From Lytechinus variegatus (lineage: Eukaryota; Echinodermata; Echinoidea; Temnopleuroida; Toxopneustidae): a DNA stretch of 64,000 nucleotides. The translations under genes were made by a program, and so were the position numbers. Of this stretch, positions 1,138-64,000 are shown piece after piece. Each line of letters begins with the position of its first letter. Within the stretch, counting starts at the first letter, position 1. The stretch is from positions 14,677,632 through 14,741,631 of the forward strand of contig NC_054742.1 in NCBI RefSeq assembly GCF_018143015.1. The letters run 5' to 3'. The notes below the pieces were generated by a model. The model worked only from the letters and a program-made list of their open reading frames with translations, was not told the DNA's origin and searched no databases.

Positions 1138-1207
1138 TTTAATTCACCTGCACTCACCCACGTGCACACACTTGCACTTCTTTTTACCATTTTTTTTTTA
1201 TATACCA

Positions 1208-1249
<42 letters not shown>

Positions 1250-6194: not shown

Positions 6195-6933
6195 TTTGAA
6201 GTTAAAATACAGTGAAGACACGTATCAAATCAAACAAATATTGATGATTTTTAATGTGAACTTATGATTACCGTCGATCAGCATGTGTCACGTAAATTTC
6301 ACATTCTCACTCTATCGTCGTTTTCCGGAGATGAAATGAGAATTTTGCCCTAAATTCCTCCAAATCAGAATATCACTGGCTATCAGAGAAAAAGTAGTGG
6401 AGAAGGTTTTTTGTTATGGTATGGTAATGAGGAACCTCGTTCGTATATTATAAAATACAGTTTTCAACCAAAATCTATGGTTAGAAAGTTGTGATAATTT
6501 TCCCAAACCCTGTATTTTTTTCTCAAAATACGCTATTTTATTGCAAAAACACGTCTCAAATTCGCCCTATGATTTGAGATATTTTCTCCTGAAAAAGCCG
6601 GCCTAAATAGGTTTATCGGAAAATATATGAATATTCATAAGGCCTGCGTAGGTATTTTTCTCGCGATTGCTTTCTTTTGATGTGATTGGTTGAAAGGGAA
6701 GAAGAGGTAAATTTTATCTGAATATTTATTTTGAGAACGGACCGTTTGCTCCATTTTCGATGACGTCACTATGGAAAATGGACGCACGCGTTAAATGAGC
6801 GCATATGAACATACCATACCAGCTAGGCGCATGCGCCACGGCTGTTTCAGAGTGAAAATAAGCTTAGCGCCCCCTCGCGGCCCAAGTGCGCATATGCATT
6901 TAACGTTGTTGTGCTGCAATCTCTACAGGGGCG

Positions 6934-17288: not shown

Positions 17289-17788
17289 NNNNNNNNNNNN
17301 NNNNNNNNNNNNNNNNNNNNNNNNNNNNNNNNNNNNNNNNNNNNNNNNNNNNNNNNNNNNNNNNNNNNNNNNNNNNNNNNNNNNNNNNNNNNNNNNNNNN
17401 NNNNNNNNNNNNNNNNNNNNNNNNNNNNNNNNNNNNNNNNNNNNNNNNNNNNNNNNNNNNNNNNNNNNNNNNNNNNNNNNNNNNNNNNNNNNNNNNNNNN
17501 NNNNNNNNNNNNNNNNNNNNNNNNNNNNNNNNNNNNNNNNNNNNNNNNNNNNNNNNNNNNNNNNNNNNNNNNNNNNNNNNNNNNNNNNNNNNNNNNNNNN
17601 NNNNNNNNNNNNNNNNNNNNNNNNNNNNNNNNNNNNNNNNNNNNNNNNNNNNNNNNNNNNNNNNNNNNNNNNNNNNNNNNNNNNNNNNNNNNNNNNNNNN
17701 NNNNNNNNNNNNNNNNNNNNNNNNNNNNNNNNNNNNNNNNNNNNNNNNNNNNNNNNNNNNNNNNNNNNNNNNNNNNNNNNNNNNNNNN
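17289..17788. other. Assembly gap (500 N)
   Basis: Exactly 500 undetermined bases. Upstream exons of the WD40 gene may be lost here. Open frames that span the gap are artefacts. Confidence 1.
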
Positions 17789-43439: not shown

Positions 43440-46400
43440 CCACCTTATAACTTGTTTTAATGACAATGATGTAAGCACCAGCCCGAGTCTGTCAGATCGT
43501 CACACATAAGTGAACATGTATAACACTTTCTTCAATGCTTCTGGCATACACCCTTATTTGCACTCACATGCACCACGCACCTCGGATACTTCAACGATTG
43601 CAAACAGAATCTTATCTATTCTCTTTCAATAGAGCAGACGTACTAAACGGGGAAACCTTTTCACCCCAGTGCAAATATTATACAGCCAGTGAATTTAATA
43701 AGGCTTTTCATAAATTAGCTCAAAGTGATATTCCCGACTACTTTAGTTTAATGCATTTAAATATAAGAAGCTTACAAAAAAATTTTGATACTTTCTGCGA
43801 ATTTTTATCCACATTAAACACATTTCCATTTTCTATTATTGGTCTCACGGAGACATGGTTGCATCCAATGTCTCCTCCAATTTACAACATTGATAATTAC
43901 AATTTCCTCCATATAGATAGAAAAGTTGGTAAGGGAGGAGGTGTCGCTCTCTATGTACATAAAGATCTTAATTACAAAGTAAGACATGATATTGAACTTC
44001 AAAATGTGGAATCCTTATTCATTGAAATTTCTAACGCTAAAAATAAGAATAAAATAATCGGTGTAATCTATAGACCCCCAACCAATAATGCTGACATATT
44101 TTTAAATGAATTGGAATCTAGTCTTGAATCAGTTTCTCGAGAAAACAAAAAAATCTATATCATGGGCGACTTTAACATTGATTTGTCATTTCCCTATACT
44201 ACAATAGGTCAACATTTTACTAATTTATTATCATCATTTGGATTACAACATCTCGTTAATAAACCAACTAGAATTTCTAACATATCAAATACAATACTTG
44301 ATAATATTTTTTCTAATGCACTTGATAAAAGTGATAATGGAATAATATACTATGATATTTCAGACCATCTGCCTATTTTTGCAATGTATCCAAATGACAA
44401 ACGCCCTCACCAACCTAGGGACAAAGAAAACATAACCAGACGGAATGAAACCCAACGTAATATAGAATCCCTTAAGGTAGATTTGGCTGAAGAAGATTGG
44501 CATGATATTTACCTAGAACAAAATGCAAATGACTCTTATGTAATATTCTTAAACAAACTTCTTTATTATTATGATAAAAACGTGCCATTACTAAGAGTTA
44601 AATCGAGTAAAAAGAAGAACAAACAACCGTGGGTCACACAAGGTATAATTAAATCCATATTCACTCGGAATAGACTTTATAAAATATCCATTAAATCGCT
44701 TACAATTCAAAACATAAATAAATACAAAAAATTCCGCAACAAATTAACTTCAGTTATTCGCCGAGCTCGCAAATCTTACTTTTCTGATGAAATTGAAAAT
44801 AACAAAGATAATAAAAATTCATTATGGAATTCTGTAAATGAGATTTTAGGTAAGAAAAAAGAAAACTATGATAACATCAATTTCGTAGAAAATGGTCAAC
44901 ACTTGCGAAACCCAAATGATGTTGCTAATGCCTTTAATAACTTCTTCAATAATATCGGTCCAAATTTAGCTTCAAAAATAGTATCTAATGATAATGATTT
45001 TTCTGAATACTTAAACGACTTTCCGGAACATTCTTTATTTTTTAATCCGACTAACACTCATGAGATCTTAGAAATTGTTAGGTCTTTGAAACCAACTAAA
45101 TCTTTAGGGCATGATGGAATAAGTGTCTGTTTATTAAAACAAATAATTCACTTTATAGCTTCACCGCTCATGCATATTTTTAACCTCTCTCTGTATCATG
45201 GCATTGTTCCCGATTCACTTAAGATTGCAAAAATAATACCAATATATAAGAAAGATGACCCATGTCTCACTTCCAACTACCGACCAATATCTTTATTACC
45301 GAGTATCTCTAAAATTCTTGAAAAAGTAGTTTACAAACGATTGTATTCCTTTTTGAACAATAACAATATATTATTTCCAAATCAATATGGTTTCAGAGAG
45401 AATCACTCAACCAATTATGCAATTTTACAATTATTCGACAAAATATCTGATTCTCTCTCTAAAAAAGAACACAATGTTGGGGTTTTTATGGACTTATCAA
45501 AAGCATTTGATACTATGGATCACCGCATTTTACTTTCTAAATTAAAGAGATATGGAATCAGGGGGGTTGTTTTCACTTGGTTCAAAGATTACTTAAGTAA
45601 TCGACGCCATTATGTTTCTTTCAAATCAAACACATCCAATATTTGTACTATGAAATGTGGAGTACCACAAGGATCGATTTTAGGTCCCTTGCTATTTTTG
45701 ATTTATATGAATGATATGGTAAATGCATCTCGAGAATTAAAATATGTTTTATTTGCAGACGATACAAATGTCTTCTATTCCCACAAAGACTTAAGTATAC
45801 TCGTCCCGACACTTAATTTAGAATCAAAGAAATTATCAAAATGGTTTAAAGCTAATAAACTCTCCCTAAATATAAGCAAAACAAATTTTATGTATTTTAA
45901 ACACATTCAAACTAAACATATGTTCCTTAATATATACATAGATGACATCCCTATCATTGAAAAACAAGAAACCAAATTTTTAGGTGTATGGATTGACTCA
46001 AATTTAACCTGGAACAGTCACATTCACAATATTTGCATGATGGCATCCAGAGGAATAGGAATTCTGTTTAGATTAAAATATTATCTCTCCCAAAAATCAT
46101 TATTTATGCTTTATAATTCGTTCGTTTTATCTCACTTATCTTACTGCAACTTAGTATGGGGGTATGGTAGTAAGGTAAAAATAGAAAGGATTTTCCGTCT
46201 CCAAAAGAAAGCACTCCGCATATGTACTCATTCACATTTCATTGCACATACTGATCCAATATTTCACAACTTAAAAACATTAAAAATTGAAGATATTAAC
46301 ATTTATCAAACGGCCATATTTATGTTTAAATTTTCATCCAATACAATCCCGATTCCATTTCGCAATTTTTTGTTTACAACAAAGACATTCACAATTATCC

Positions 46401-46984
46401 AACACGGCATTCAACAGATCTCCACTTAACCAACCCAAGAATATTACTCGCTCATAAGACGATACGCCACCGTGGCCCAGACATTTGGAATGCATTGCCA
46501 CATGATATAAAACAATGTACATCTCTCTATTCGTTTAAAGCTTCGTTGAAAAAATTTCTTATTTCTAAGTATACCTAATTTAATTCACCTGCACTCACCC
46601 ACATGCACACACTTGCACTTCTTTTTACCATTTTTTTTTTATATACCAATATGTATATATATATTATATATATATATATATATAAATCTTATATTTCGTG
46701 ACGATCAGTTTATCAAATATAATTTATGATGGTTTTCATGTAGCCCCCTCTCCTGGCTGCTATTGCTTCAAGCACCTCTGTGCTTATAATAGCTGGCCCC
46801 TGTATTTTACCGAACTATATCACATGCTTAGGTATGATTTAATTACCAGTCTTGTTTGTATTATTTACATTGTATCTTTTAAATTGTCGCATTTAATTTG
46901 TATTCATTCAATTATGTGAACATGTTAATCTATCATTGATTTCTGAATAAAATGCAGAAACTCCTGCAAAAAAAAAAAAAAAAA
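43440..46984 (+). mobile_element. Near full-length LINE (CR1/L2/jockey-like), copy 2
   Basis: One large ORF (43535-46429), then a 3' UTR with an AT dinucleotide run, AATAAA near 46948 and poly(A) ending at 46984. No separate ORF1 is visible upstream, and the exact 5' end is not clear. Only the part from 45443 on lies inside the duplicated segment seen in this window. Confidence 0.88.
43535..46429 (+). CDS. LINE endonuclease-reverse transcriptase, C-terminal frameshift
   Basis: 964 residues from ATG at 43535. The N-terminal APE-type endonuclease shows HLNIRS (about 74-79), LTETWL (about 104-109), YRPP (about 178), GDFNID (about 208) and SDHLPI (about 274). A linker with basic RRARKSYF follows. 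The reverse transcriptase has SLGHDGIS, NYRPISLLPS, NQYGFR, DLSKAFDT (Asp about 653), GVPQGSILGP and the FADD box (about 740-743). The enzyme nicks DNA and copies its own RNA onto the target. At 46366-46371 there are six T where copy 1 has seven. The last part therefore shifts to FLFTTKTFTII and stops about 50 codons early, losing the conserved WNALP end. Otherwise intact. Confidence 0.93.
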   Translation: MLLAYTLICTHMHHAPRILQRLQTESYLFSFNRADVLNGETFSPQCKYYTASEFNKAFHKLAQSDIPDYFSLMHLNIRSLQKNFDTFCEFLSTLNTFPFSIIGLTETWLHPMSPPIYNIDNYNFLHIDRKVGKGGGVALYVHKDLNYKVRHDIELQNVESLFIEISNAKNKNKIIGVIYRPPTNNADIFLNELESSLESVSRENKKIYIMGDFNIDLSFPYTTIGQHFTNLLSSFGLQHLVNKPTRISNISNTILDNIFSNALDKSDNGIIYYDISDHLPIFAMYPNDKRPHQPRDKENITRRNETQRNIESLKVDLAEEDWHDIYLEQNANDSYVIFLNKLLYYYDKNVPLLRVKSSKKKNKQPWVTQGIIKSIFTRNRLYKISIKSLTIQNINKYKKFRNKLTSVIRRARKSYFSDEIENNKDNKNSLWNSVNEILGKKKENYDNINFVENGQHLRNPNDVANAFNNFFNNIGPNLASKIVSNDNDFSEYLNDFPEHSLFFNPTNTHEILEIVRSLKPTKSLGHDGISVCLLKQIIHFIASPLMHIFNLSLYHGIVPDSLKIAKIIPIYKKDDPCLTSNYRPISLLPSISKILEKVVYKRLYSFLNNNNILFPNQYGFRENHSTNYAILQLFDKISDSLSKKEHNVGVFMDLSKAFDTMDHRILLSKLKRYGIRGVVFTWFKDYLSNRRHYVSFKSNTSNICTMKCGVPQGSILGPLLFLIYMNDMVNASRELKYVLFADDTNVFYSHKDLSILVPTLNLESKKLSKWFKANKLSLNISKTNFMYFKHIQTKHMFLNIYIDDIPIIEKQETKFLGVWIDSNLTWNSHIHNICMMASRGIGILFRLKYYLSQKSLFMLYNSFVLSHLSYCNLVWGYGSKVKIERIFRLQKKALRICTHSHFIAHTDPIFHNLKTLKIEDINIYQTAIFMFKFSSNTIPIPFRNFLFTTKTFTIIQHGIQQIST

Positions 46985-49900
46985 TTTAGCAGCTCAAAAC
47001 TCATATGGAAAACTAGCGGACAGAAGGTCCTCGCTGCACGCGCGCACCCTTAATTTTATAACACGCAGAATTCCCTTGCATCATACCCTTTTTCACAAAC
47101 AAATGTGTATCAAGGACAAGCGTTGATTCAGATAGAATTTCCGCCCCCCCCCCCGGCCCCCTGAAATGAATGTTAATAACTTCTTCTATCAGATGACAAT
47201 ATTTTTTTTTTTACATTCAATTGGTGGGAAATATGGCACTTTATTACATTAAAATCACTAAAAACCATCCATAGTCAGGAATATGTATTGGGATAATGGG
47301 TTAGGGGGACATTTTTATAGTACCCGGGTGGATTACATCCGTCGTCACATCGTTGGGTGATGGTATCAAGAATTTCCGCCCAGATTATAATAAAGGGCAC
47401 ATTATAAGGCAAATACTCATGAAAGAACCATGGAGATTGGTTAATAAGGAAATAGTGCACTTTTATCATCAAATCAGAGGAGATTTTCTTTGTGATACTG
47501 ATGTCCGAAGAGCAAACCTACACTCGACGTGCATTCAACACATAGGGCTGGACAGAGCTTTTGTGTACGTCGGTGTGTTGTTCGAGTCACAGCGGTTTTC
47601 TAGCTCTTTCCATTGCAGTGCTGAACATTTTATTAGGAATATATAAATATATATACCTTGTCAGTCCGAACTATGGATATAAATATATCAGATACCATTA
47701 TTTTTGCCAACAAAAATCAATTTTATTCTCTGAATTGGATATGTCTCTGAATGTTGTGACGGGTCCATTATGTATACGAGGGGTGCATCTAGCTAGCTCA
47801 TCACTGCATTGGTAAGTCTGAAATTTAGGTTTGCTTATTCATTTCACTTTAAATGATGTTAAATGTAAGGATAATTTATGAAATCGACATAAGATATTGC
47901 GGATCAACGCTGAAACATTATTTGTGAAGACCTTTTATCCCTCTGTAATGCTATTTCCCCCATAAAGCCGCAATGGAACATTCTGCACCACTAGTCATAC
48001 GATGATCGCGAGGTCTGCAAACGTCGTCTGCTATGTTTTTATATGTCCGGTACACTGTATGCAAGTTTTCGATATGCAAGAATACTGCCGTGCGCATTGA
48101 TTGGTCATAGAAAACACACATGCACCCACGCAAATTCCAATGTTCCCCACACTGGGCCTCTGCAAGGTCACACTCACTATGTGGTAATCTCTTCAAATTA
48201 CCCGCGCCTGTTGTTGTGAAAACAATATTCAGCCAATCAGAACTCTGAATTTTATGTTACTCAGAAATTTTAGAAATCTCGTCTTGCATCTTTATGGAAA
48301 AAGCTGGCTGCTGACCCATCTAAAAGATGCCACATATCAAAAGTGACATTGTAAGAAAGTATAGAGTTTGAGCTTTCTGATGATATAAATCATGTTTGTG
48401 CCTGAAACACAAAATATTTATGTTGCAGAATTTGCCAGTGAAAAACTTGAGAGGAAGAAAATTCTGTTTGATGCATCTTTTCAGGTAAAAAAATAACTTA
48501 TTTATCAAAATATTTTATTTAAAAAAATGACCAATATAAAAGAGTAACATTTACTCTTCCCCCGTGATGGTACAAAAATAATCAATTTTACTCAAGGAGA
48601 AAGTGGTTAAATTCTTTGAGAAAGAAAGTCTCACAATACGAGATTTTGCAGTTACATGAATTCAGCCACGAGAGGATAAATCTTGCTCATTATTCAGGGG
48701 CTTGCCGACTGACTGTACGGAATTTCACATTTTTGCTGAAGGAGTGTCAAAGTTACATGAACGGCGTATAGGAACAAATCACCTGGTCGGAACAAATCGG
48801 CTATGACGATCGCATCACACAACAAAACTAGGAACAAATCGGCGGATAAAAGAGCCGCAGATTAGTTCTTCCGGACTCGATTGGCTGCCCGATCCAATTA
48901 TTATGACACCGGCCGGCCGCGGCCGTGCGTGTACCCACGTATGTGCACGAGATGGGAGAAGCGCTCGGGTAATGTATCTACAATGGCGCACAAGAGGGCG
49001 CGCATCCTAGTGAAGATCAAAAATTACTCACGCTCATTTTTACGACCAAGACTTCCGAGATTGCCCAAAGATTAATTCATATATAAAATCCCGAAATGGA
49101 TTTCAACATCGTATAGCAATATAATATTTTCATTACAGACATATTTTACCACCGTTAGAAGTAACAACATTCAATTCCACTAAACTATCTCTTGAGAAGC
49201 ATTTTACCTCAGCCGTCCAAACTTCCGGTTTCGTGCGACTTTTTTTAAGTAAGCGAAATTTACCCCGAAAGTTATGGTTTATTCTTTTAAAACCATAGTT
49301 TTTCCAGATTAACAAATTAAATCAACGAAATGAGAGATTATTAGCTGATACAAATCAGATCTTAAATCCCATCCATCACTTTTTTCTTAAAAGGAATTCG
49401 TGTTCTTGCGTGACCCTGTAAGGCCTTGCTGCGCACAGTTGCAAGGCGTAATACACGCGGCTCTATGGAAGCACGTCGTCTGCTCTGGGCGTCCCATACG
49501 TGATTTTCTGTGTATGGTTTTAAGGGCGTAAATGGGCTGTGCGGGCTGAGCTCGGGGGCTGAGCTCAACTCTCAAGTTGAAGAATGAATCTGAGTCTGTA
49601 TGCATGGTTATGGAATTAAAATAGCTAAAAGATATATTTAGAGCGTTGCATGAATCAATAATTTCATTAGATTTAAGGTTTATTAAGATGTAATATTGTA
49701 CATTTAATCAGATATCCACCATTCATCCCTCTCAATCCAGCCAAAACAGTCAATGTCTACTCCCGTACCACATTGACTGCACTCACCTCATAACTCTTAG
49801 GGCAACATGTGAACCAATGTCTTTGTCATAAATTTTTTTACTTACTAATCTATTTATTTATTCACTTTAATTTGTCTCATTACAATGAATAAATTTTATC

Positions 49901-51346
49901 TTCATCTGTACCAAATAATTTATTCATTCATTTATTACGTACCTTTCCCTATAATGATTTGATGACAAATGTGTTAGTTTTATTCTGTTCATTCATTGAA
50001 TATTCAATTAATTAACCTGATCTTAATTAAATCATCTTTTGGCTTATACATTGAAATAACTGAGGCGTTACGAGGGAGTAGGCAGGGGGCAAACGCACGC
50101 TATGACTTTCCAATAGTGGGGCAGGGGGGGATGGAGAAGAACGGGGGGAAATAATAGGATGAAGGGGATAAAAATAGATATTTGGGTAATGTACATGTAA
50201 ATATATAACTAAGGTAATTGATTAAGGTTAATAATTTATATTTATTTGATAAAAATTGAAATTAAAATCATCTTGCTCATGGTCAGAAATAAAGGTGTAC
50301 GTGATATACCCTCTCAAGGCCAAGGGTTGAAATTTCGCTGATGAAAAAAAAATCCTCAAGATTTCATTGTCTGCATCTGTGAAGGGCCACACGTAAAAAT
50401 ATTTCCAATGTATTTTAATCCAACTTCATAGAACTGTCAACACACTCTTACCAAACTGATCCTCATAAAATATCAGTATCATAAGCTACGTTGGCTCAAT
50501 CTAGAGGCTACACCCACATAAAAAATTTTAAAAAAGAAGACAAGATCACCATCTTGAGCAAAAAGCTGTAATTAGTTACACAACACAATCTCAATAAACT
50601 GTTCACCCAGTTCTTGAATTGCAAAAATCTTAAGATTAAAAACCATGACTCTAAGCAGAAGTAATATTTTTCTGAAGCCGGTGGATACAGGACACACGCA
50701 ATTGTCAAAGAAACTCTTAAGGGGAGATGATACTGGGGCAGTTTTGCATTTTGTTTCATTGAAGATTTTGTGAACATGTTTCGTGAATTTTGTGGTAATA
50801 ACCCCCCCCCCCCTCGCACCCCTGTTGCGTACAGCCATGACAAAACAATTTATTTTTATCTTTAATTATTGTAAAAATTCTGTACCACTACGTGAATAGA
50901 TAAACAGAGTCTTTGTACATCAATGAAGTAAAATAATTATATTTTTGATAATTAATAAATAAGGGGCACTATCCTGGTTTCACCACTCCATTCACTGGGC
51001 ATTTCGTCAGCGGCGGTGACTTCTTTCCTCTCCCATTGACTTTGTACACAACGAGCACACACAAGAGAAGAAAGGTGACTTATTTCAGGATAATGTACCT
51101 ATTTTCAATTTTTCATAATAATGAATGCCCCTGGGCCTACTGATAGATTAATAGAACTAAAAAAAATAAAATATTCTCTTAATTTTTAAAGCCAAGGATT
51201 TTAAAATACATGTTTAAAAAGAACCCTCGAATAAACATTAGGGGCCTACTTGTCTGTATTTTTACAAGAAACGATTTAAAAAAAAATTAATGACACCCAG
51301 ATTAGACCCCCCCCTCAAAATAAAAAATAGAAATCAGAATTACCAT
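46985..51346. other. Duplicated noncoding stretch (second copy of 1547-5896)
   Basis: Same content as in copy 1, including the possible small exon at about 48429-48484 and the GC-rich patch near 48909. No open frame gained or lost in a way that suggests coding function. Confidence 0.5.
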
Positions 51347-52824
51347 CCAGGACCAAAATCCAGTTAAAACCAATTAGAGCAAAACCAATTGAAACCAGTT
51401 GGCCAACTGGTTTCAATAGGGAAATTGGAACAACTGGTTCCAATTGAAAACCAGTTGCCAATTGGTTCCAGTTAAAACCAATTGGGCAACTGGAACCAGT
51501 TGGCAATTGGTTTCCAATTGGTTCCAGTTGTTCCAATTTCCCTATTGAAACCAGTTGAATCCAATTGGAGGTAACTGGTTTCAATTGGTTCCAGTTGAAA
51601 CCAATTGGAGGCAACTGGTTTCAACTGGAACCAGTTGAAACAATTGATTTCCAACTGGATCCAATTGGAACTTCCAGTTGGAATGAACTTAATTAGTTAC
51701 AAATTAATTAACACTTGCACTAACTATTGCTCATGTCAACACAGAAGCAGTGTTATGCCTGTATATACCAATGTAAAGGGCATTGATAAAATACAGACTT
51801 TCATTATGTACATATTTATGGAAGATCTTCAAATATATGTATTTTTATTTGATGCAATTTGGTAACAGTTAGTGGTGTACTAATTATCTTTTAATCTATT
51901 CTAATTATAATCTATAACATTTATGAACATGGTTTTCACTGCTAAGTATTCCAAACACTTATCTTAAAAAAGTGTGGTACTTCAAATTAACAAAAATCAA
52001 CAGATATATTGTAAATTATGATGAATCTCATAAAAACATTGATTTGTGCACACTGGCAGAAAATATGCAAATTAACTGGTTTCAATTGGATCCAGTTGGG
52101 TAACTGGAAAATTTCCAATTGGAAATCATTTCCAGTTACCCAACTGGATCCAGTTAGGATTTCCAGTTACCAAACTGGTTCCAGTTTTATTTACAGTTAC
52201 CAAACTGGTTCCAATTAGAATTCATTTCCAGTTACCCATCTTTCCAGTTAGAAGTCATCTCCAGTTACCCGATTGGTTCCATTTAGGATTTCCAGTTACC
52301 CAACTGGTTCCAGTTAGAAATCATTTCCAGTTGGAAGTCATTTCCAGTTACCCAACTGGTTCCAGTTAATTAGGAGAAGTTCCAGTTGCCCAACTGGTTC
52401 CAGTTAGGATTTCCAGTTACCCAACTGGTTCCAGTTAGAAATTCCAGTTGCCCAACTGGTTCCAGTTAGGATTTCCAGTTGCCCAACTGGTTCCAGTTAG
52501 GATTTCCAGTTGCCCAACTGGTTCCAGTTAGGATTTCCAGTTGCCCAACTGGTTCCAGTTAGGATTTCCAGTTACCCAACTGGTTCCAGTTAGGATTTCC
52601 AGTTGCCCAACTGGTTCCAGTTAGGATTTCCAGTTGCCCAACTGGTTCCAGTTAGGATTTCCAGTTACCCAACTGGTTCCAGTAAGGATTTCCAGTTGCC
52701 CAACTGGTTTCAACTGGAAATTGTTAAATTCCAGTTAAAACCAATTGAAACCAGTTGAAACCAATTGAAACCAATTGAAACCAGTTGGAAATCCAACTGG
52801 TTTCAATTGGATTTTGGTCCTGGG
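51347..52824. mobile_element. Foldback element built of AACTGG/CCAGTT words
   Basis: Absent from copy 1, so the boundaries are exact. Ends: CCAGGACCAAAATCCAGTT and, inverted, CCCAGGACCAAAATCCAATT, with the flanking AT duplicated (51345-51346 and 52825-52826). The left arm (about 51347-51690) and right arm (about 52073-52824) consist of CCAGTT, CCAATT, AACTGG and AATTGG in both orientations. The core (about 51691-52072) is ordinary AT-rich DNA. The right arm contains a 31-bp tandem array, CCAGTTGCCCAACTGG then TTCCAGTTAGGATTT, about 10 units at 52379-52690. No transposase. Confidence 0.9.
52379..52690 (+). repeat. 31-bp minisatellite inside the foldback element
   Basis: Units start CCAGTTGCCCAACTGG or the variant CCAGTTACCCAACTGG and continue TTCCAGTTAGGATTT. 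Each unit has a small hairpin (CCAGTT...AACTGG and AACTGGTTCCAGTT). Regular, but spacers do not vary, so it is not a CRISPR. Confidence 0.92.
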
Positions 52825-52828
52825 ATAC

Positions 52829-53116
52829 CACCAAATAAAAAATCGATCTGGCTATTAAGTGGACTTCAGTAACTCCAGTCATATGAAAGTCATTTGGAAC
52901 AAATACTACTAAACGTTTAAAATAGCCAAGAAACATTGCAATCACATTGAAGATAATGTCAAATGCAGCAAAAGCAGCGAACACCATTCCACGTACTTCG
53001 ATGCGGGACTGGGTTCGCATTGCCGACGACACCGGCAGTGCATTGGATGGCGTACCGCTGGAATTTGAATTTCGCTGCTCGGAACACTGGATACGAGCAT
53101 AAATTCCAAAATCCAT
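52829..53116 (-). CDS. First coding exon of the unknown membrane protein (copy 2)
   Basis: Same 96 codons as 5907-6194, with ATG at 53116-53114 and phase-0 end at 52829. The foldback insertion begins four bases into the intron. The donor changes from GTATGG to GTATCC, losing the G at +5 that pairs with U1. If the donor fails, the frame runs into the repeat (SQDQNPIETSWISNWFQ). Coding sequence itself appears unbroken. Confidence 0.6.
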
Positions 53117-53926
53117 TTTGAAGTTAAAATACAGTGAAGACACGTATCAAATCAAACAAATATTGATGATTTTTTAAGTGAACTTATGATTGCCGTCGAT
53201 CAGCATGTGTCACGTAAATTTCACATTCTCACTCTATCGTCGTTTTCCGGAGATGAAATGAGAATTTTGCCCTAAATTCCTCCAAATCAGAATATCACTG
53301 GCTATCAGAGAAAAAGTAGTGGAGAAGGTTTTTTGTTATGGTATGGTAATGAGGAACCTCGTTCGTATATTATAAAATACAGTTTTCAACCAAAATCTAT
53401 GGTTAGAAAGTTGTGATAATTTTCCAAACCCTGTATTTTTTTCTCAAAATACGCTATTTTATTGCAAAAACACGTCTCAAATTCGCCCTATGATTTGAGA
53501 TATTTTCTCCTGAAAAAGCCGGCCTAAATAGGTTTATCGGAAAATATATGAATATTCATAAGGCCTGCGTAGGTATTTTTCTCGCGATTGCTTTCTTTTG
53601 ATGTGATTGGTTGAAAGGGAAGAAGAGGTAAATTTTATCTGAATATTTATTTTGAGAACGGACCGTTTGCTCCATTTTCGATGACGTCACTATGGAAAAT
53701 GGACGCACGCGTTAAATGAGCGCATATGAACATACCATACCAGCTAGGCGCATGTACCGTACGCTGCCCAATCTCCGCTCACCCAGCTGAGGCGCTGTCG
53801 ATATTAAGATGACCTTCTAAATTCGTCCTAATTCCTTTACCGCGTAGTATACGCACATAAATGCGCGCACGACACGCGCCTGTTATATGAGCAAACGTTA
53901 TGTCGAAAAAACAACACCGACCCCCC

Positions 53927-53933
53927 TATAAAA
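53927..53933 (+). promoter_or_regulatory. TATA box
   Basis: TATAAAA in the context CCCCCCTATAAAACATC, with a GC- and CpG-richer stretch upstream (53755-53890). A start about 30 bp downstream (near 53957) would give a short 5' leader up to the ATG at 53994. Confidence 0.45.
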
Positions 53934-53993
53934 CATCAAGAAATATTCATTTGAAATGTTAGGTAGTCCTGAGTTGACTGTTGGAACTTCACC

Positions 53994-53996
53994 ATG
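53994..53996 (+). CDS. ATG placed directly on a splice donor
   Basis: CTTCACC ATG|GTAAGTTC: a good start context immediately followed by a consensus donor, 67 bp past a TATA box. Such one-codon first coding exons exist in animals. Read without splicing it gives five codons and a stop. The next acceptor could be any cassette of the array at 55319-57709, which in phase 0 would give a peptide starting MTYLPSTAVSFRL and a stop after 17 residues. Hypothetical. Confidence 0.3.
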
Positions 53997-54329
53997 GTAA
54001 GTTCTTTCTAACACAATAATATTGCCGAAAAACGGAGAAAAAAAAAAAAATTATGCAAGATGAGCGAAAATACATGACTTACGGATGCAGGAGGTCCGTA
54101 CGGATCGTCACGGAACTTTTTTCGAAGTGAACGATCTTTTGATTAAGTTCGTGTGGACGAATAATGAGACAAACTCGTGAGATGGCGCTATGCCCTAACT
54201 CCGCTCACCCCTAATTGATTGTCTCGGTGCGTGAGCTATACGTGTTCCGATATAGTTCCATGAATATATATATAGCATTATATTCTAGGTACTACATATC
54301 TAAGTGTAATTTTAATCTATATCGGGATC

Positions 54330-54800
54330 TTCGGCTGGATTATGATGATGTGATGATAAAAATGATTACGATAAGGAGAAGGAGGATTATGATGACGAAG
54401 CTGCTGATGATGCCTGATGTTGATGATGAAGAGAATGAATAGTAAGAAAACGGATAAAGAAAGATAAGAAAGAGAAAGGAAGAAAGACATTAAAGATATA
54501 AGAAGAAAATAATAAGATGGTGATGATGATGATAATGAAGATGATGATGATATATGATAGTTAGCGATAAAGATGATGATGATAATGAAGATGATGATGA
54601 TGATGAAGATGATGGTGATAATGAAGATGATGATGATATATGATAGGTATCGATGAAGATGATAATGATAGGTATCGATGAAGATGGTGATGATAATGAT
54701 AGGTATCGATGAAGATGGTGGTGATAATGATGATGGTAGTTTTCGATGAAGATGATGGTGAGGGTATATTGGTAAGGTGGTGGATGTTATGATGATGACG
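54330..54800 (+). repeat. GATGAT/GATAATGAAGATGATG microsatellite
   Basis: Irregular (GAT)n with an embedded 20-24-bp repeat, GATAGGTATCGATGAAGATG (about 54638-54730, roughly four times). No coding support. Confidence 0.85.
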
Positions 54801-55318
54801 ATAAATATTTATGGTTAAGATGATTAAGAACGATTATGACGATCTTGATCGTGGTAGTGGTGTTGGTGTAACTAGAACATCTCAAAGAGCCTTCCCCTTT
54901 CACCTTTTTCACTTACGAGTGGCGAGATCACCCCAAGAGTGAGGTGTGCAAAACTGTTTTGAAACTTTCTAAAATTCTTGTGCTGAGGAGGACGGCTAAG
55001 ATAATAGTAAATAAGAAGCAGGAGAAGGAAAAATTTGAAGATGAAGAAGGAGAGAGAGAAGAAGAGGATGAAGAATATTAAGAGGATATTATAATGGGGC
55101 CGCGGATCAGTTTTGAAAGTGAGGGATAGAGCCAAAAGTCGGGGGCTGACCATGCAAAATATCATGATCATGGTCATTTTTTCGTTTTTATACACGTTTT
55201 TTTTTAAAAAATTGGGGGGGGGGGGGCTGAAGCCCCTGGATGTTGATTGACGATAATAATTTATTTAATATAAAGCTATCATGTTTCTTTATTATAAAAC
55301 GATAATTTCCAATTTCAG
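54801..55318. other. Spacer with repeat fragment
   Basis: Purine-rich, then a GGGGCCGCGGATCAG...GGGGCTGAAGCCCC repeat with poly(T) and poly(G) at about 55095-55245. No gene. Confidence 0.5.
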
Positions 55319-57709
55319 ACATACCTTCAAAGTCCAGCAATTTCTTTCCGACTGCATGCCAGAGGGTAGATAATCTCCTTTTCTTCGTTTTTTGTTGTTG
55401 TATAGATTGAGGTGAGTGTTGTTGACTAAAATCACTACCATTAACTAGATGAATGTATATATGTAACTTTGTAATAAAGTTTTCAGGATGATTATGAGGG
55501 GATATTATGAAGAGGAAAAATAAATAAAAGGGGAAAAAAGAAATGAACGAACAAGAAGATGATAATGATTGATGATATATTAAAAATTTCAAATAAGTTT
55601 TGGTAGTTTTTATAACATTATGATAATAATTTCCTATTTCAGACATACCTTCCGAGTACCGCCGTTTCTGTCCGATTGCAAGTCAGACGCTAGATAATCT
55701 CCTGTTGTACAGTGAGGTGTGTATCGTCAACTAAAATCATTACCATTAACTAAATGAATAATTATATATATATAACTTTGTAATGAAAATTTCAAGATGA
55801 TGATGATGACAAGGATAATTATAAGCTGTATCGTTTATGATAATTTTCCCTTTCAGACATACCTTCCGAGTACAGCCGTTTCTTTCCGATTGCATGCCAG
55901 AGGGTAGATAATCTCATTTTCTTCGGTTTTTTTGTTGTATAGATTAAGGTGAGTGTTGTTGACTGAAATCACTACCATTAACTAGATGAATATATATATG
56001 TAACTTTGTAATAAAGTTTTCAGGATGATTATGAGGGGATATTATGAAGAGGAAAATAAATAAAAGGGGAAAAAAGAAATGAACGAACAAGAAGATGATA
56101 ATGATTGATGATATATTAAAAATTTCAAATAAGTTTTGGTAGTTTTTATAACATTATGATAATAATTTCCTATTTCAGACATACCTTCCGAGTACCGCCG
56201 TTTCTTTCCGATTGCAAGTCAGACGCTAGATAATCTCCTGTTGTACAGTGAGGTGTGTATCGTCAACTAAAATCATTACCATTAACTAAATGAATAATTA
56301 TATATATATAACTTTGTAATGAAAATTTCAAGATGATGATGATGACAAGGATAATTATAAGCTGTATCGTTTATGATAATTTTCCCTTTCAGACATACCT
56401 TCCGAGTACAGCCGTTTCTTTCCGATTGCATGCCAGAGGGTAGATAATCTCATTTTCTTCGTTTTTTTTGTTGTATAGATTAAGGTGAGTGTTGTTGACT
56501 GAAATCACTACCATTAACTAGATGAATATATATATGTAACTTTGTAATAAAGTTTTCAAGATGATTATGAGGGGATATTATGAAGAGGAAAAATAAATAA
56601 AAGGGGAAAAAAGAAATGAACGAACAAGAAGATGATAATGATTGATGATATATTAAAAATTTCAAATAAGTTTTGGTAGTTTTTATAACATTATGATAAT
56701 AATTTCCTATTTCAGACATACCTTCCGAGTACCGCCGTTTCTTTCCGATTGCAAGTCAGACGCTAGATAATCTCCTGTTGTACAGTGAGGTGTGTATCGT
56801 CAACTAAAATCATTACCATTAACTAAATGAATAATTATATATAACTTTGTAATGAAAATTTCAAGATGATGATGATGACAAGGATAATGGAAGAATAGAT
56901 ATAAGGGAAGAAAAAGAAGAAGAGAAAGATAAATACGAAGAATATGATAATATTAATACTTTCATAATTATAAGCTGTATCGTTTATGATAATTTTCCCT
57001 TTCAGACATACCTTCCGAGTACAGCCGTTTCTTTCCGATTGCATGCCAGAGGGTAGATAATCTCATTTTCTTCGGTTTTTTTGTTGTATAGATTAAGGTG
57101 AGTGTTGTTGACTGAAATCACTACCATGAACTAGATGAATATATGTATGTAACTTTGAAATAAAGTTTTCAGGATGATGATGAGGGGATATTATGAAGAG
57201 GAAAAATAAATAAAAGGGGAAAAAAAGAAATAAACGAACAAGAAGATGATAATGATTGATGATATATTAAAAATTTCAAATAAGTTTTGGTAGTTTTAAT
57301 AACATTATGATAATAATTTCCTATTTCAGACATACCTTCCGAGTACCGCCGTTTCTTTCCGATTGCAAGTCAGACGCTAGATAATCTCCTGTTGTACAGT
57401 GAGGTGTGTATCGTCAACTAAAATCATTACCATTAACTAAATGAATAATTATATATAACTTTGTAATGAAAATTTTAAGATGATGATGATGACAAGGATA
57501 ATGGAAGAATAGATATAAGAAGGGGAAGAAAAAGAAGAGAAAGATGAATACGAAGAAGATGATAATATTAATACTTACATAATTATAAGCTGTATCATTT
57601 TTATGATAACATTATAATGATAATTTCCTATTTCAGACATACCTTCGAGTACCGCCGTTTCTTTCCGACTGCAAGTCAGACGCTAGATAATCTCCTGTTG
57701 TACAGTGAG
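55319..57709 (+). repeat. Array of nine exon-like cassettes in A/B alternation
   Basis: Nine blocks, each preceded by TTTCAG and followed by a GT donor. A type (GTGAGT donor): 55319-55411, 55857-55948, 56393-56484, 57006-57097. B type (GAG|GTGTGT donor): 55643-55716, 56179-56252, 56716-56789, 57330-57403, 57637-57709. All begin ACATACCTTC. B blocks are 74 bp and open in one phase (IPSEYRRFFPIASQTLDNLL); A blocks share that start (IPSEYSRFFPIACQRVDNL) but run into a stop or change frame before the donor. The last B block lacks one base. Spacers are AT- and GAT-rich; the A-to-A period is about 537 bp, longer (613) at the third step because of an inserted stretch. This is either a satellite whose unit happens to contain an exon, or an amplified set of alternative exons. 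Confidence 0.8.
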
Positions 57710-58279
57710 GTGTGTATCGTCAACTAAAATCATTACCATTAAACATAACTATATCACTTTGTACTGAAAACATCACAGAATGATGTTGAGTGAATAAGTA
57801 GAGAAATACAAAATAATAATCAATACTAATAATACTGATTATAAGAGGCAAAGAAGAACAGAAGAGGAAGAAGAAGAAAAAGAGGAGGAAGAGGAAGAAT
57901 GAGATGTTATTAATATTTGACGATCTATCATAAATTCATATAATTTTGGCGTTCAACGATTAAAGGGATAGAGCCTCGTCGATCTGGCGCTGCACAGTGG
58001 CTGCCGGGCCTACGATCAATTTGGCAAAGCAAATTTTCGGAGTATATAATTTCATCTCTATTCGAACAATAAATTATGGAATTTCATTTTCATTTAAATC
58101 AACTGTTTTTGTGTATTGATAGATAATTTCCAATAATATTTTCCGAAAATCTGAACACAATTATAAACAGCGTCTGAAATACACTTAATTTCTGAATAAA
58201 AAAAACTATAACTTCTTTGAAAAAGCCTTGTTATTATAATCAATCAATCAATCAATCAATGTTTTTCTTCTTTTACCAG
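57710..58279. other. Spacer before the transposase gene
   Basis: A GA-rich run (about 57848-57900), a GC-richer piece GATCTGGCGCTGCACAGTGG (57981-58000), then AT-rich DNA with an AATCAATC run (58239-58260). The left end of the pogo element should lie here but I could not fix it. Confidence 0.4.
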
Positions 58280-58543
58280 ATGAAGGCTCAATGGAAACTT
58301 AATCATTTACAGGCAGCCCTGAGGAGAATAAAAATGGGAGAAATTTCATTCAGGGCTGCCTCTAAGCAGTATGGAGTTCCATTTTCCACTCTGAGAGACA
58401 AATACCACGGGAGAAGTTCAGTTTATGATGCCCGCCCTGGTCCCAAGACCTATCTTACCAGAGGGGAAGAAAATAAACTCGTAGAATGGGCTAAAGGAAT
58501 GGCTCGCATTGGATTTGGGCAAAACAAAGATGGAATCCAAGAT
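58280..58543 (+). CDS. Transposase exon 1: pipsqueak-type HTH
   Basis: ATG at 58280 lies directly after an acceptor-like TTCTTTTACCAG, which suggests a noncoding exon upstream. 88 codons end in phase 0 at donor GAT|GTAAGA. Residues about 10-55 (LQAALRRIKMGEISFRAASK, then QYGVPFSTLRDKYHG) form a pipsqueak/HTH fold that binds the transposon ends. PGPKTYLTRGEENKLVEWAK starts the second, CENP-B-like HTH that continues in exon 2. Confidence 0.88.
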
Positions 58544-58577
58544 GTAAGAAATAATTTAAACACGAATCATTTTTATA

Positions 58578-59540
58578 CAGTGCGTATCAAAAAAAGTTTA
58601 AACTTTGAAAAAGCCCTGGGAATTACAAAATATACAACATGTGGATAATCTTTTCACATATTATTTGGGGTTTGGGTCTAATGTGTCCAATGAAAGTGAA
58701 AGTTTTGACAGAATGGCACTTGAGTGAGCACTGTCCATTTTTGTAAAGCTCACAGAAATCTGTTTGCGCAGAAATGCCCGTTTTCACGCTGTGTCAAGGG
58801 GAAAGGGCGAAATCAAACTTACCCTGCAAAACATTTCTCATATATATCCCTTGCACTTTTAGTCAATTGAAACAAAATGGATACATTCAAGCATTTTGTA
58901 AAAATTTTGCCACCCAAATTGAAATTTCTACACCTAGTAAGCACAACCTTTTGTGCCGACTGGATCTGCGGACATAACTGATTCTGAACAAAAGTTTACA
59001 TATATCAGACATATCCAGCATTTTTTTTTCAATAAGTTTTTTTTTTGGTCATTCAAAGTGGGTTTCCATTTCATTCTTCATTTAATACACTTTACCCAAG
59101 CTGAGTATGATTACCAAAATGTCACTCAAGTAAATTACAGCTCAGTGCAAACCAAACATCGTCACGATGGCCTCGGTGTGTTGGGAGTGGGGTGGGGCTC
59201 AATGCACTTTTCGAAGTTTTATGGGCAAGGAAACAGTTAAAAAAGGTAAAAGATATCTTCAAATTAGTTGACTGGCTAAATTCTACATGTTCTTCATGAT
59301 TAAGGACTACTTTTATTCGCATAACTATTTCAAAGTTCTTCGCAAATCATTTTTCACTAACTTTTCAAAAGTAAGTGGTGCTCACTCAAGCGGAATATTT
59401 TTGACAGTTATATCGTCATTATTTTGCTTAAATGGATCTGTACCAAATTTGAAATGTGAAGAAAAAAAATCATCAGGATACTACAAATTTATAATTTTAC
59501 AGGATTTTTTCTAAGTGTTAACTTTCTTTTATACGCACTG
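58578..59540. mobile_element. Tc1/mariner-type MITE in the transposase intron
   Basis: The ends CAGTGCGTATCAAAAAAAGT and ACTTTCTTTTATACGCACTG are inverted and flanked by TA (58576-58577, 59541-59542). Further inside, CACTTGAGTGAGCAC (58718) and GTGCTCACTCAAG (59378) are also inverted, so the arms are about 180-200 bp. Length 963 bp. No transposase. Confidence 0.9.
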
Positions 59541-59763
59541 TAGTAGCTGTGTATACAGGTAACCTAATTGTGCCGAAATCATTCTAAACAACAATTTTAT
59601 ATATCTAGACATGTTGCATCCTTATAAATTTATAAGGAAGCTAAGGTTTTTCTTCTGTATTGATTCTTCGCTCATTTTACATGAAATTATAATTTCAAAT
59701 TAAATCAATCAACCACAAACAACAAGGGCCGGGCAAAGCGGGAGGGTGCTTCAGCCCCGTACC

Positions 59764-60152
59764 CAGTGGCCAAACTACGGGTGGGCACGTGCCCCCCCAT
59801 CGGCTAGCAAAAAAAGACGGGGAAATAGGAGTAAATAGGGAGGAAAAACAGAGGCATAGTAAATTTTGTTGATGGCCTATGACATTGTGTTCATCCTGGT
59901 GCTCACAATTTCTGTTTAATAAATATATAATCCTGTTGTATTAAAACATTGTTTATCTCTTTTTTTTTGTAGGTCTGAATGTAAAAAAAGTTCAGCTCGC
60001 GCTTCGCGCTCGCATCTGTTTAATGACACAGTCCTTAAAATGCTTCTATTAGGTCGCTATACCTGGCAATTGAGAGCGCTTCGCGCGCCCAATAAGTGAC
60101 TCAAAACTTGTGGTGGTGCCCCCTTAATGCCATGACCCACGGTACGCCACTG
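59764..60152. mobile_element. hAT-type MITE in the transposase intron
   Basis: The left CAGTGGCCAAACTACGGGTG and the right end (reverse complement CAGTGGCGTACCGTGGGTCA) match. Flanks CCCGTACC (59756-59763) and CCCCTACC (60153-60160) agree at seven of eight positions, the size expected for hAT. Contains the GCTCGCGCTTCGCGCTCGCAT hairpin (59996-60015) and GAGCGCTTCGCGCGC (60079). Confidence 0.85.
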
Positions 60153-60248
60153 CCCCTACCCACTATTGACATGACAAATATCTTCCCGATTGTCAACATC
60201 AATTATTGTAATAAAATGACCATTCCTCCTTGACTGTGTTCTTTGTAG

Positions 60249-61190
60249 GCTGTGAAGAAATTTCTGGACAAGGAAGGACGCAAAACACCATTCATTGGAA
60301 ACAGGCCAGGAGAAAAGTGGTGGAGGGGCTTTAAGAGGAGACACAAAGATCTCGTCTTTAGAAGACCTCAGGTCATTGGGAAGGAAAGGGCCGTCGTGTC
60401 AAACGCTCGCATCATTAAGTGGTTCGACGAATTCAAACAATATATAAAGGATCAGAATGCGGAATCGATTCTGTCGGAGCCGAGGAGGATATTCAACACA
60501 GACGAAAGTGGTTTCGCCCTTGGCGGCCGCCAAAGAGATCGCGTCTTGGCAGGAAGAGGGGAGAAGAGAATAGCTGAATTCAAAAACTCCGACAAGACTC
60601 AAGTCACAGTGTTGGCGGCAGTATCTGCAGATGGCGAATACCTTCCTCCAATGATAGTTTTGCCTGGACGGCAACACGTGGACAGGGACTATCAAGGAGC
60701 ACCAAAGGGAACCCTCTTTGCAAGAACGCAAAACGGATGGATAGACGCCGGGAGTTTCTTCAGTTACGTTGCGAATGTATTTCATCCTTACGTACTCCAA
60801 AAAAGGATACCTAGGCCGGTGCTCCTATTAGTCGACGGTCTCGCAGCACACCAGACCTTGCAAGTTGCTAGTTTTTGTAGAGAGAATGATATAATCCTGT
60901 ATCGCTTTCCACCTCACGCAACCCACATCCTACAGCCTTGCGACTTAACGGTTTTCCGATCCCTTAAAACGGAGTGGTATAAGGCAGAAAGAGCATATCG
61001 GTTTGAAAATCCTGGAGATTATGTCACGAAATCTACCTTTGCAAGGGTCTTCAAGAAAGCTTGGAGTGAAGTCACAAGAAAGCCCCACGTTGCCAAGAAT
61101 GGGTTTAAGGTGGCTGGACTGTATCCATTCACAACACAATACAACACCGACATGGTGAGACCTGCCACGATCTTCAGCTTTCCCGTGATT
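60249..61190 (+). CDS. Transposase exon 2: CENP-B-like HTH and DDE core
   Basis: Acceptor TTCTTTGTAG; phase 0 with exon 1. AVKKFLDKEGRKTPF and GEKWWRGFKRRHKDLVFRRP complete the CENP-B-like HTH (about residues 89-128 of the joined protein). The DDE_1 nuclease follows. The first Asp is in FNTDESGF (about 173), the second in LLLVDGLAAH, and the third in HILQPCD, 35 residues between the last two (DD35D, pogo-like). All three acidic residues are present, and GLYPF marks the end of the core. The enzyme would cut and paste the element at TA sites. The frame is uninterrupted through 61190; about there the coding sense moves to another frame. Confidence 0.92.
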
Positions 61191-61337
61191 CCGAACAGGA
61201 GAGCTCAGCTGCAAACTCCCAGCAACCGGCAGCTCCTCTTAATCAACCATCAATCGACGGCCCATCACATGAGAGGAGTTCTCTTCACCAAACAATGTGT
61301 GATGACTCGCAAAGCTCGAGTCCTCGACCTCCGTCTT

Positions 61338-61741
61338 CTCCACCTACATTTGCTGGTCCATCGTGTCCTAGCACGTCTCCATCGCCTCCACCTACATTTG
61401 CTGGTCCATCGTGTAGCACGTCTCCATCGCCTCCACCTACATTTGCTGGTCCATCGTGTAGCACGTCTCCATCGCCTCCACCTACATTTGCTGGTCCATC
61501 GTGTCCTAGCACGTCTCCATCGCCTCCACCTACATTTGCTGGTCCATCGTGTCCTAGCACGTCTCCATCGCCTCCACCTACATTTGCTGGTCCATCGTGT
61601 CCTTGCACGTCTCCATCGCCTCCACCTACATTTGCTGGTCCATCGTGTCCTTGCACGTCTTCATCGCCTCCACCTACATTTGCTGGTCCATCGTTTCCTA
61701 GCACGTCTCCATCGCCTCTACCTACATTTGCTGGTCCATCG
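61338..61741 (+). repeat. Coding minisatellite, 48/45-bp units
   Basis: Nine copies of a unit encoding PPPTFAGPSCPSTSPS in the tail frame; two copies lack one codon. All length changes are multiples of three. Because no frame of the unit contains a stop, the other plus frame and the minus strand are also open; those are shadows. Confidence 0.92.
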
Positions 61742-62232
61742 GCTGGCTGTTGCCCTCGGACTCACTCACCTGTACAACCAGCACCACGACCGACGAACGA
61801 AGATTTTGTAAGTCCAACCTTGGATCAGTTTATCCAGTTTCCTGTCATCGAGGTTTCGGGTGATAGGAAAAGGCGATTAATACTACCAGAACCCATATCA
61901 TGGGATGGTACAATCGAACAATTACGTGCGAAACAGCAGAAAAAAGAAGATGACGAAGAAAGGAAAAGGAAAAACAAGGAAGAGCAGATGAGGAGAAGAC
62001 TTGAACGAGAGCAAGAAAGGGAAGAAAGGAGAAGGCTGGCAGAGGAAAGAAGAAAGGAAAGGCTGAAGAAATTAGAGCAAGATAGGCTAAAGAGGGAAGA
62101 ACGTATCAAAAAGATAGAGGAGAAAAAACGAGTGAAAGAAGAAAAGCGCCAAGCAGAAGAAAAAGGAAAAGGGAACAGGAAATAGAAAGAAAGAAGAAAG
62201 AAGAGGAGAATAAGAGGATTGAAGAACCCGTC

Positions 62233-62547
62233 ATGAAGAGGAAGAAGAAAAGGAAAAATAAGTTGAATAAACGCCAAGCAGAGCAAAGAAGCGTTCAGCA
62301 AGAGGATGGTAAAAAGAAACAAGATAAAGAATCCGTCATGAAGAGGAAGGAGAAGAGGAAAAATAAATTGAAGAAACGCCAAGCAGAGCAAAGAAGCGTT
62401 CAGCAAGAGGATGGTAAGAAGAAAAACGATAAAGAATCCATCATGAAGCGGAAGAAGAAAAGGAAAAGTAAATTGAAGAAACGCCAAGCAGAGCAAAGAG
62501 CCGTCCAGCAAGAGAATAGTAAGAAGGGAAGAGAAGAAATGAGACCG
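62233..62547 (+). repeat. Coding tandem repeat, period 105 bp
   Basis: Three copies starting at 62233, 62338 and 62443, each encoding MKRKKKRKNKLNKRQAEQRS, then VQQEDGKKK and variants. Highly basic; likely nuclear localisation or nucleic-acid contact in the transposase tail. Confidence 0.9.
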
Positions 62548-62846
62548 GAAAATCAACAGACACTACAAAAGATAGAAAAGACAAGCGAGAAGAGAAACGA
62601 AAAGGAAATAATAAAAGAAAAAAGAAGGTAACAGGAGGAAAGGTTAAAACCAAGACCAGACATACAAATGAATACGAATACATTTGTCCAGAATGTTTGT
62701 CACCAGGAGAAAGAAATCAAAGATGGATCGGATGTGACGTCTGTTTCAGATGGATACATTCATCATGCACAAGATTGCATCTGCTAAACGATGAAGATAT
62801 TTCAAACATCTATTATCAATGTAGATTTTGCGCATCGGAACCGTGA

Positions 62847-64000
62847 TTGCATTGATCTTTTATACAGAATCTCAAATTTACACAACACAATAAACCACAT
62901 GGTCATTGAAGCTAAAATGATGATTGAGGTTAATCCGAAATAATCGATTATTATCCCTGTCATATTTAAAACAAATTCAAGTACATGGATCACAATATTC
63001 TGTAAATCATCTTCTGATCAATATTAATTCTAGCCGTTACTGATTCAGATATATCGTTAAAAAACTTATTTAACACTATTTACAGAAATATATCTTCTAT
63101 ATACCACTTGACAGAAGACCTGAAAGTGAAATTGATCATTTAACTAGTGAGATTATGTCGACGATTGACATTCCGTTTTCTCTGTTTCTTGTATTTTTTT
63201 TATTACTAATGGTAGATCGATGAATCTATACTGCAACTGATTTTGGATATGAATACTCCCATCAATATCAACCTTTGTGGTAAATGATATCACTTGCTTT
63301 AATATCATAATAATTATCAAAGGAGCGTAGTATACTTTACGGAACAAAAATAAGAGGACAAGGATTATTTGGAATGTATAGCATATGGAATACATGTATT
63401 TTTCAACGTTAAGGCATACATACAGTAAGAACATAATTATTTCATCAAAGTAAAATCAGTTAAGTCGTAATTTCTATAGGCTTATTTAGTTCTTTACATG
63501 ATTTGTAAATGTGTCGACATTTATTTTTGAGAAAAATTGACATGTTTTAACTTTTCAATTGGCGGACAACATCATGTCTGCATCCATTTTGAAAATTGTG
63601 TGTAAAACGATTCCGTAGTTTGCATTTTTAAACTTGTTTTATCAATTCTGATTTAATGAAATTGCATCTTCCACTTTGTGATGACATGATTGAAATGTGT
63701 TAACAAACGTGTTTAAGCAATGTTTTTCCTCTGACAAACATGTAGAACGTAAAAGTGGTTTTCCTAAATAAAATCAGATTGGTTCATACGGAGCAATTAA
63801 GGACCATGAAGCATATTAATGTTGTCAATAATTAACGTCCTTTATCAATATTACTATTGTTTATTATATTATATATCATATATACCTATATTTTGACATG
63901 CATTTCTTAATGAAATATGTTATAAATACATTTCCTGCCCGTATAAGCAGGGTAAAGGGAGTTTCCCTTCCCCAGAAAGTTTTGAAAACTGTTTAATCTT
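62847..64000. other. No supported feature
   Basis: AT-rich DNA downstream of the transposase. The right end of the pogo element should lie in this stretch, but no inverted partner could be identified. No open frame of note. Confidence 0.45.

Follow-up and report, generated by a model that had tools for sequence, protein, structure and literature searches.

How should a row of nine exon-like units, each bounded by splice-like signals, be read: as a set of alternative exons, or as a satellite whose founding unit happened to carry such signals? An earlier note on this Lytechinus variegatus locus entertained both. We analyzed the whole stretch of 64,000 nucleotides, referred to here as the window (G000:C3:14677632-14741631 of an 869.6-Mb assembly). 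The mitochondrial code of this assembly points to an echinoderm, probably a sea urchin: in the COX1 gene on contig C33, AAA corresponds to Asn at the PRMNNM stretch and ATA fits Ile well, and the next gene encodes tRNA-Arg. The array itself was as the note had described it, with nine units in the order A-B-A-B-A-B-A-B-B between 55319 and 57709 (Table 1). TTTCAG directly precedes all nine units, and a donor-like sequence closes each of them, GTGAGT in the four A units and GTGTGT in the five B units. The claims about length and reading frame required qualification. A length of 74 bp and an open phase, both ascribed to type B, apply to four of the five B units; unit 9 is one base shorter owing to a deletion and has lost the frame. 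The A units measure 93 bp (one unit) or 92 bp (three units). The predicted peptide, MTYLPSTAVSFRL plus four residues and a stop, is encoded by units 3 to 8 (six of nine), with substitutions in units 1 and 2, which nonetheless keep the stop common to both types, and with a shift to another stop in unit 9. One internal ATG is present in every A unit, and none is present in any of the five B units.

Table 1. Positions of the array, its units and the parts of the host element, numbered from the first letter of the window
Feature	Position	Strand	Remarks
Cassette array, A-B-A-B-A-B-A-B-B, with A+B dimers of about 536 bp	55274..57750	+	outer limits approximate
Unit 1, type A, 93 bp	55319..55411	+	
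Unit 2, type B, 74 bp	55643..55716	+	
Unit 3, type A, 92 bp	55857..55948	+	
Unit 4, type B, 74 bp	56179..56252	+	
Unit 5, type A, 92 bp	56393..56484	+	
Unit 6, type B, 74 bp	56716..56789	+	
Unit 7, type A, 92 bp	57006..57097	+	
Unit 8, type B, 74 bp	57330..57403	+	
Unit 9, type B, 73 bp	57637..57709	+	1-base deletion
Pogo-like DNA transposon, 12,278 bp	53755..66032 (window part 53755..64000; G000:C3:14731386-14743663)	+	TIRs, TA ends
TATA box and exon 1 ending in ATG, then donor GTAAGT	53927..53996	+	exon start placed from the TATA box
Intron 1 of the transposase gene, 4,283 bp, with GAT-rich stretch and array	53997..58279	+	predicted from sequence
GAT-rich minisatellite of intron 1	54330..54880	+	TRF rows within 54457-54735; outer limits by eye
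Exon 2, HTH_psq	58280..58543	+	ATG straight after acceptor TTTTACCAG; donor candidate GAT/GTAAGA at 58544
Exon with DDE_1	60249..61244	+	acceptor in top 0.55%; alignment with L040 extends to 61244
C-terminal region with charged coil and PHD finger (62685-62831), in other frames	61763..62846	+	PHD match in 62523-62846

The internal organization of the array is that of a repeat. Its copies run head to tail with high identity, as in any tandem repeat, and TRF assigned a 306-bp period to the 3′ part (56685-57742) with a score of 1245, far above chance. Types A and B show about 75% similarity across 200 bp and are combined into multimers that are nearly identical, which is the arrangement of a higher-order repeat. 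Of 536 sites compared between the neighboring dimers 1 and 2, 3 differ, as do 7 of 532 between dimers 1 and 3; the last dimer (B8-B9) is distinguished from the others by 43-51 sites. Because the dimers are so nearly identical, the amplification must be recent. Moreover, the units are copies of one founder, and the nine splice-site pairs therefore do not amount to nine independent observations. Judged by its sequence, the array is a recently amplified higher-order repeat, with splice-like pairs that descend from a single founder pair.

A search of the rest of the genome, which the earlier note had proposed as a check, placed the array at one locus. The 17-base core of the cassettes had seven exact matches in the assembly, all inside the array. 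A looser pattern allowing up to 3 mismatches recovered eight of the nine units and one place on contig C9, and the reversed control of this pattern gave 4 chance matches. The 537-bp dimer and unit 9, used as queries, had no match in the genome beyond the array itself. Unit 1 with its flank produced an extra 52-bp match on C9, to 55256-55306, ahead of the exon-like block. We considered a second array at C9:8877931 and rejected it, as the match is isolated and the surrounding 10 kb (L027) lacks significant transposase similarity. Copies at many genomic sites, as in a large satellite family, were thus not found in these searches, and we therefore regard the repeat as a local intronic array.

The array resides in a DNA transposon. 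A 15-bp terminal inverted repeat, TACCGTACGCTGCCC, begins at 53755 and has its exact inverse at 66018-66032, and TA flanks both ends of this one occupied site. The element encodes both the helix-turn-helix and the DDE domains of a transposase (HTH_psq, E=5e-07; DDE_1, E=1.6e-21), followed by a PHD finger (E=1.3e-06). From these domains, we take it to be a pogo-like member of the IS630-Tc1-mariner group.

The TATA box (53927) and the ATG sitting on a splice donor (53994-53996, with GT at 53997), which had been pointed out upstream of the array, were found in place and turned out to be parts of a gene that runs in the same direction as the array and contains it in its first intron. Among GT sites, the donor of exon 1 ranks in the top 0.44%, and among AG sites, the exon 2 acceptor ranks in the top 0.40%; these ranks, like those given below, come from simple weight matrices. 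Because both sites are strong, intron 1 most plausibly spans 53997-58279, and its position matches that of a GAT-rich intron 1 in five relatives of the element (L040-L044). The candidate donor of exon 2 ranks lower (top 4.8%). Joined to exon 2, the ATG of exon 1 would give ATG/ATGAAG, in frame, and start the transposase. Both the TATA box and ATG/GTAAGTTCTTTC are kept in another copy, L047, which is 77% identical over 338 columns; among the copies found, this fragment is the only close counterpart of the 5′ end, a 67% match on contig C3 being weak. At the other end of the gene, the homology from DDE_1 to the PHD finger forms a single 535-codon frame in L040, whereas in the window copy it is split into blocks in different frames. 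The C-terminal coding part of the window copy is probably broken or frameshifted, extra introns being the alternative.

Further repeats occur within this gene and its surroundings. A repeat in intron 2 (58574-59542) has an 83% identical copy at 72974-73956 of the extended sequence and an 82% identical one in L047. Tandem repeats of 48 bp (61338-61741, Pro/Ser-rich in one frame) and of 105 bp (62222-62526, Lys-rich) lie further downstream in the gene, and part of the DDE exon is tandemly repeated five times in L047 (7952-9493).

On its upstream side, the element borders a tandem duplication of more than 26 kb with 99.2% identity (1-6833 versus 45443-53754 in the window; -19999 to 5904 versus 25432-51346 in the extended sequence). 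The second copy of the duplication ends at 53754, one base before the transposon TIR, and the first copy runs on into sequence that, as judged by eye, has no match in the element or in its 3′ flank. This edge may be due to an assembly effect or to a break where the transposon ends. The second copy also contains a patchwork of CCAGTTGG/CCAATTGG minisatellites (51347-52824) that is missing at the matching point of the first copy (5904). Elsewhere, the window holds a LINE-type element with a 971-aa open frame for endonuclease and reverse transcriptase domains (43514-46429, + strand), a signal peptidase exon (Peptidase_S26; 30634-30930, − strand), which we take to be probably of the SEC11 type, and an assembly gap of exactly 500 N (17289-17788).

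Comparison with related elements separated what is shared from what is peculiar to this copy. A protein search with the DDE part returned at least 61 matching stretches in the genome, and 10 kb was taken around each of the seven next-best matches among those listed. In five of the seven (L040-L044), the transposase is 57-58% identical to that of the window copy, and the order of parts is exon 1 with its donor, a GAGATGGCGCT motif, a GAT-rich stretch, an acceptor and the HTH exon (read by eye except in L042). Among the five, L040, L041 and L043 yielded a 5′ TIR. By eye, the five form two near-identical groups, L040/L043 and L041/L042/L044, and with the window copy they make up three lineages. 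The PHD finger scores above the Pfam cut-off in the window copy and below it in L040 and L042 (18.7 and 19.1 bits versus 24), both of which align to the PHD region of the window copy.

The densest 500 bp of intron 1 contain 115-169 GAT hexamers on the sense strand in L040-L044; the densest 500 bp of the window intron, starting at 54342, contain 73, a weaker enrichment than in these relatives. None of 518 control strand-bins of 500 bp, drawn from sequence that includes the relatives L045-L047, reached 30 GAT hexamers (maximum 22). The stretch is absent from L045 and L046, which are 43% and 41% identical, and L047 shows neither a GAT stretch nor an HTH domain within its 10 kb. It was also not found within about 1.5 kb in L056, L057 and L060; the GAT comparison was made without L059 and L061. 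L057 is part of a close though degraded copy, with 54% identity in its HTH and 61% across 141 DDE residues; since it shows no GAT stretch within this range, even close copies need not have a GAT-rich intron. A GAT-rich intron 1 common to three lineages of one element is nevertheless an unexpected architecture. The cassettes are not shared in this way: they are absent from L040-L044, the closest full relatives among the matches listed.

With the setting defined, the exon readings can be weighed. The earlier note had proposed mutually exclusive coding exons on the plus strand, and the splice-like ends, together with one frame that stays open in four of the five B units, fit this proposal. It fails on the coding side. 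All four A units contain stops in all three frames, the lengths of 93, 92, 74 and 73 bp are unequal modulo 3, the last unit is frameshifted, and a by-eye comparison of units 3 and 4 in the open B frame shows four differing codons, all of which alter the amino acid. We give such exons almost no credence. Exons belonging to a minus-strand gene are hardly more credible, even though a donor-like GGTATGT occurs in all nine units (top 1%), the five B units have a fair acceptor (top 3.5%), and one frame stays open through the core (in B, for example, DYLASDLQSERNGGTRK), since the acceptors of all four A units are very poor (bottom 7%) and the listed open reading frames, such as 55188-55682 and 56480-56755, merely run through the repeats.

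The strength of the plus-strand splice sites deserves closer consideration. Cassette donors rank in the top 0.1% (A) and 0.7% (B), and cassette acceptors in the top 2.1% for A, except unit 1 at 14.6%, and in the top 6.5% for B. In 104 kb outside the array, we counted 4 plus-strand and 17 minus-strand site pairs of B strength (0.101 per kb per strand); those of A strength numbered none on the plus strand and 2 on the minus strand (0.010 per kb per strand). At these rates, a 4.3-kb intron would be expected to contain about 0.4 pairs of B strength and 0.04 of A strength. Since pairs of A strength are so rare outside the array (2 in 104 kb), the founder seems somewhat better than a random sequence; its splice-site pair would appear mildly unusual, not extraordinary. 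Under lenient thresholds, the window intron contains 12 acceptor-donor pairs spaced 50-150 nt apart, compared with none in L040, L041, L042 or L043 and one in L044, the latter in a non-GAT stretch.

These sites could serve a function outside the coding sequence, with the cassettes acting as alternative poison exons of the 5′ UTR whose inclusion lowers transposase synthesis. Following this logic, the ATG of exon 1 would be joined to a cassette and open a short upstream frame ended by a stop, and a larger number of cassettes would make inclusion likelier. Several features agree with this: the cassettes are located downstream of exon 1 and upstream of exon 2, in the sense orientation, their predicted sites are on the strand of the gene, with strong donors and, apart from the weak one of unit 1, fair acceptors, the TATA box and ATG/donor are conserved in L047, and reading from the exon 1 ATG meets a stop in all nine cassettes, after 17 residues in eight units and 18 in unit 9. 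However, the cassettes occur in one copy of the element and in none of the five relatives of 57-58% identity, the ATG at the exon 1 donor is absent from the four of these relatives that were read (L040, L041, L043 and L044), and the C-terminal coding part of the window copy is itself probably broken.

The divergence of exon-like blocks and spacers, a comparison suggested in the earlier note, was assessed in four A-B pairs. In three A-B pairs, 5 sites differ in the 59-bp core, compared with 14-19 of 81 in the downstream intron (Fisher P 0.14, 0.21 and 0.023); between units 1 and 9, 10 of 58 core sites and 19 of 73 downstream sites differ (Fisher P 0.29), few sites being available in each case. 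Extra constraint on the core is thus not significant in three of the four comparisons and clear in one, at an uncorrected P of 0.023. Over all pairs, the A-B core differs by 11.6%, as opposed to 29-51% in the surrounding blocks, the ends of which may not be homologous. These figures fall short of demonstrating constraint, which may nonetheless exist. Overall, we consider poison exons unlikely, and still less likely the more ambitious proposal in which the pogo clade would maintain a GAT-filled intron 1 as a control element, with the nine poison 5′ exons as a dimmer of transposition set by the number of cassettes.

The array might instead consist of binding sites on DNA, recognized for example by a host factor or by the HTH_psq transposase; the core would then be the putative binding element and the splice-like ends incidental. 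The core is indeed the part in which A and B are most alike, long GAT arrays are kept at the same place in L040-L044, and a subterminal motif, CTCCGCTCACCC, occurs twice near the element's 5′ end, at 53773 and 54199. Set against this, plus-strand comparisons of the cassettes with the 5′ regions of the five relatives and of the element itself gave P values of 0.06-0.99 (12 comparisons), and the cassettes were not found in the relatives; we regard such an array as very improbable. A derivation of the cassettes from exon 1 of the element was also considered, as 12 of 13 bases match exon 1 of L041 by eye, and was rejected after alignment against shuffles (P 0.06-0.99, 12 comparisons). At the RNA level, an Rfam scan of 53800-58200 identified no family at the gathering score, with three weak snoRNA matches outside the array, and the folding z-scores, computed on both strands for one unit of each type (0.34, -0.23, 0.61 and -0.30), gave no sign of a structured RNA.

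We therefore return to the second possibility raised in the earlier note, a satellite with an exon-like stretch in its founding unit, which the tandem, near-identical dimers within intron 1 support. In our assessment, the array is probably a young satellite in intron 1 of a single, likewise probably decaying pogo-like transposon, and its resemblance to exons would result from incidental splice-like signals. We propose that an intronic segment of less than 200 bp, containing acceptor-like and donor-like sequences by chance, was duplicated, that the duplicates diverged into the A and B forms, and that slippage or unequal crossing-over subsequently multiplied the A+B dimer, a process perhaps favored by the surrounding GAT repeats. 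The cassettes would mostly or always be spliced away together with intron 1, and a cassette included by error would contribute no protein domain, just a 5′ leader containing a stop. A counterpoint is that both acceptor and donor are kept in all nine units despite the divergence between A and B. Nevertheless, a splicing switch would need to have evolved in what seems to be a single, decaying copy, which is evidence against it. A seemingly exotic exon array thus becomes readable as a transposon intron hosting repeat growth. More generally, satellites can bear complete exon-like signals and may thereby mislead gene finders. The locus also raises the question of whether such repeats serve the control of splicing or translation or are merely tolerated.

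How does this locus compare with known systems? Similar to other pogo-like transposons, the element combines HTH_psq and DDE_1 with short TIRs and TA at its ends, but it differs from them in its C-terminal PHD finger, its introns and its GAT-rich intron 1. In insect Dscam, an array of mutually exclusive exons is located between constant exons. The exon-like units described here are likewise arrayed between constant exons; unlike those of Dscam, they have no common reading frame, no common length and no shown coding constraint. Our literature search yielded no direct precedent, either for a PHD finger in a pogo element or for an exon-like satellite within an intron, and the following systems offer partial parallels. 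Ginger1 DNA transposons include transposase genes with introns and, in one family, a PHD finger (PMC2836005), and in both respects they resemble the present element. However, the Ginger1 transposase is of the Gypsy-integrase type rather than HTH_psq/DDE_1, and the cited passages of that report mention no repeat-filled intron (PMC2836005). Minisatellites and satellites born inside transposable elements have been reviewed, and, as in the cases covered by the cited part of that review, the present array lies in a mobile element and can be explained by slippage and unequal crossing-over (PMC6947457). It departs from those cases in its dimer of about 536 bp, its splice-like ends and its location in an intron of a DNA transposon gene (PMC6947457). 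Finally, GAT microsatellites bound the tandem duplicated segments of the Sp185/333 (SpTransformer) genes in the purple sea urchin, and the relevant section of that work proposes that they promoted the duplication (PMC3091723). Whole immune genes are duplicated in that family, in contrast to an intronic segment of a transposon here; in both echinoid systems, GAT repeats are found beside a recent tandem duplication (PMC3091723).
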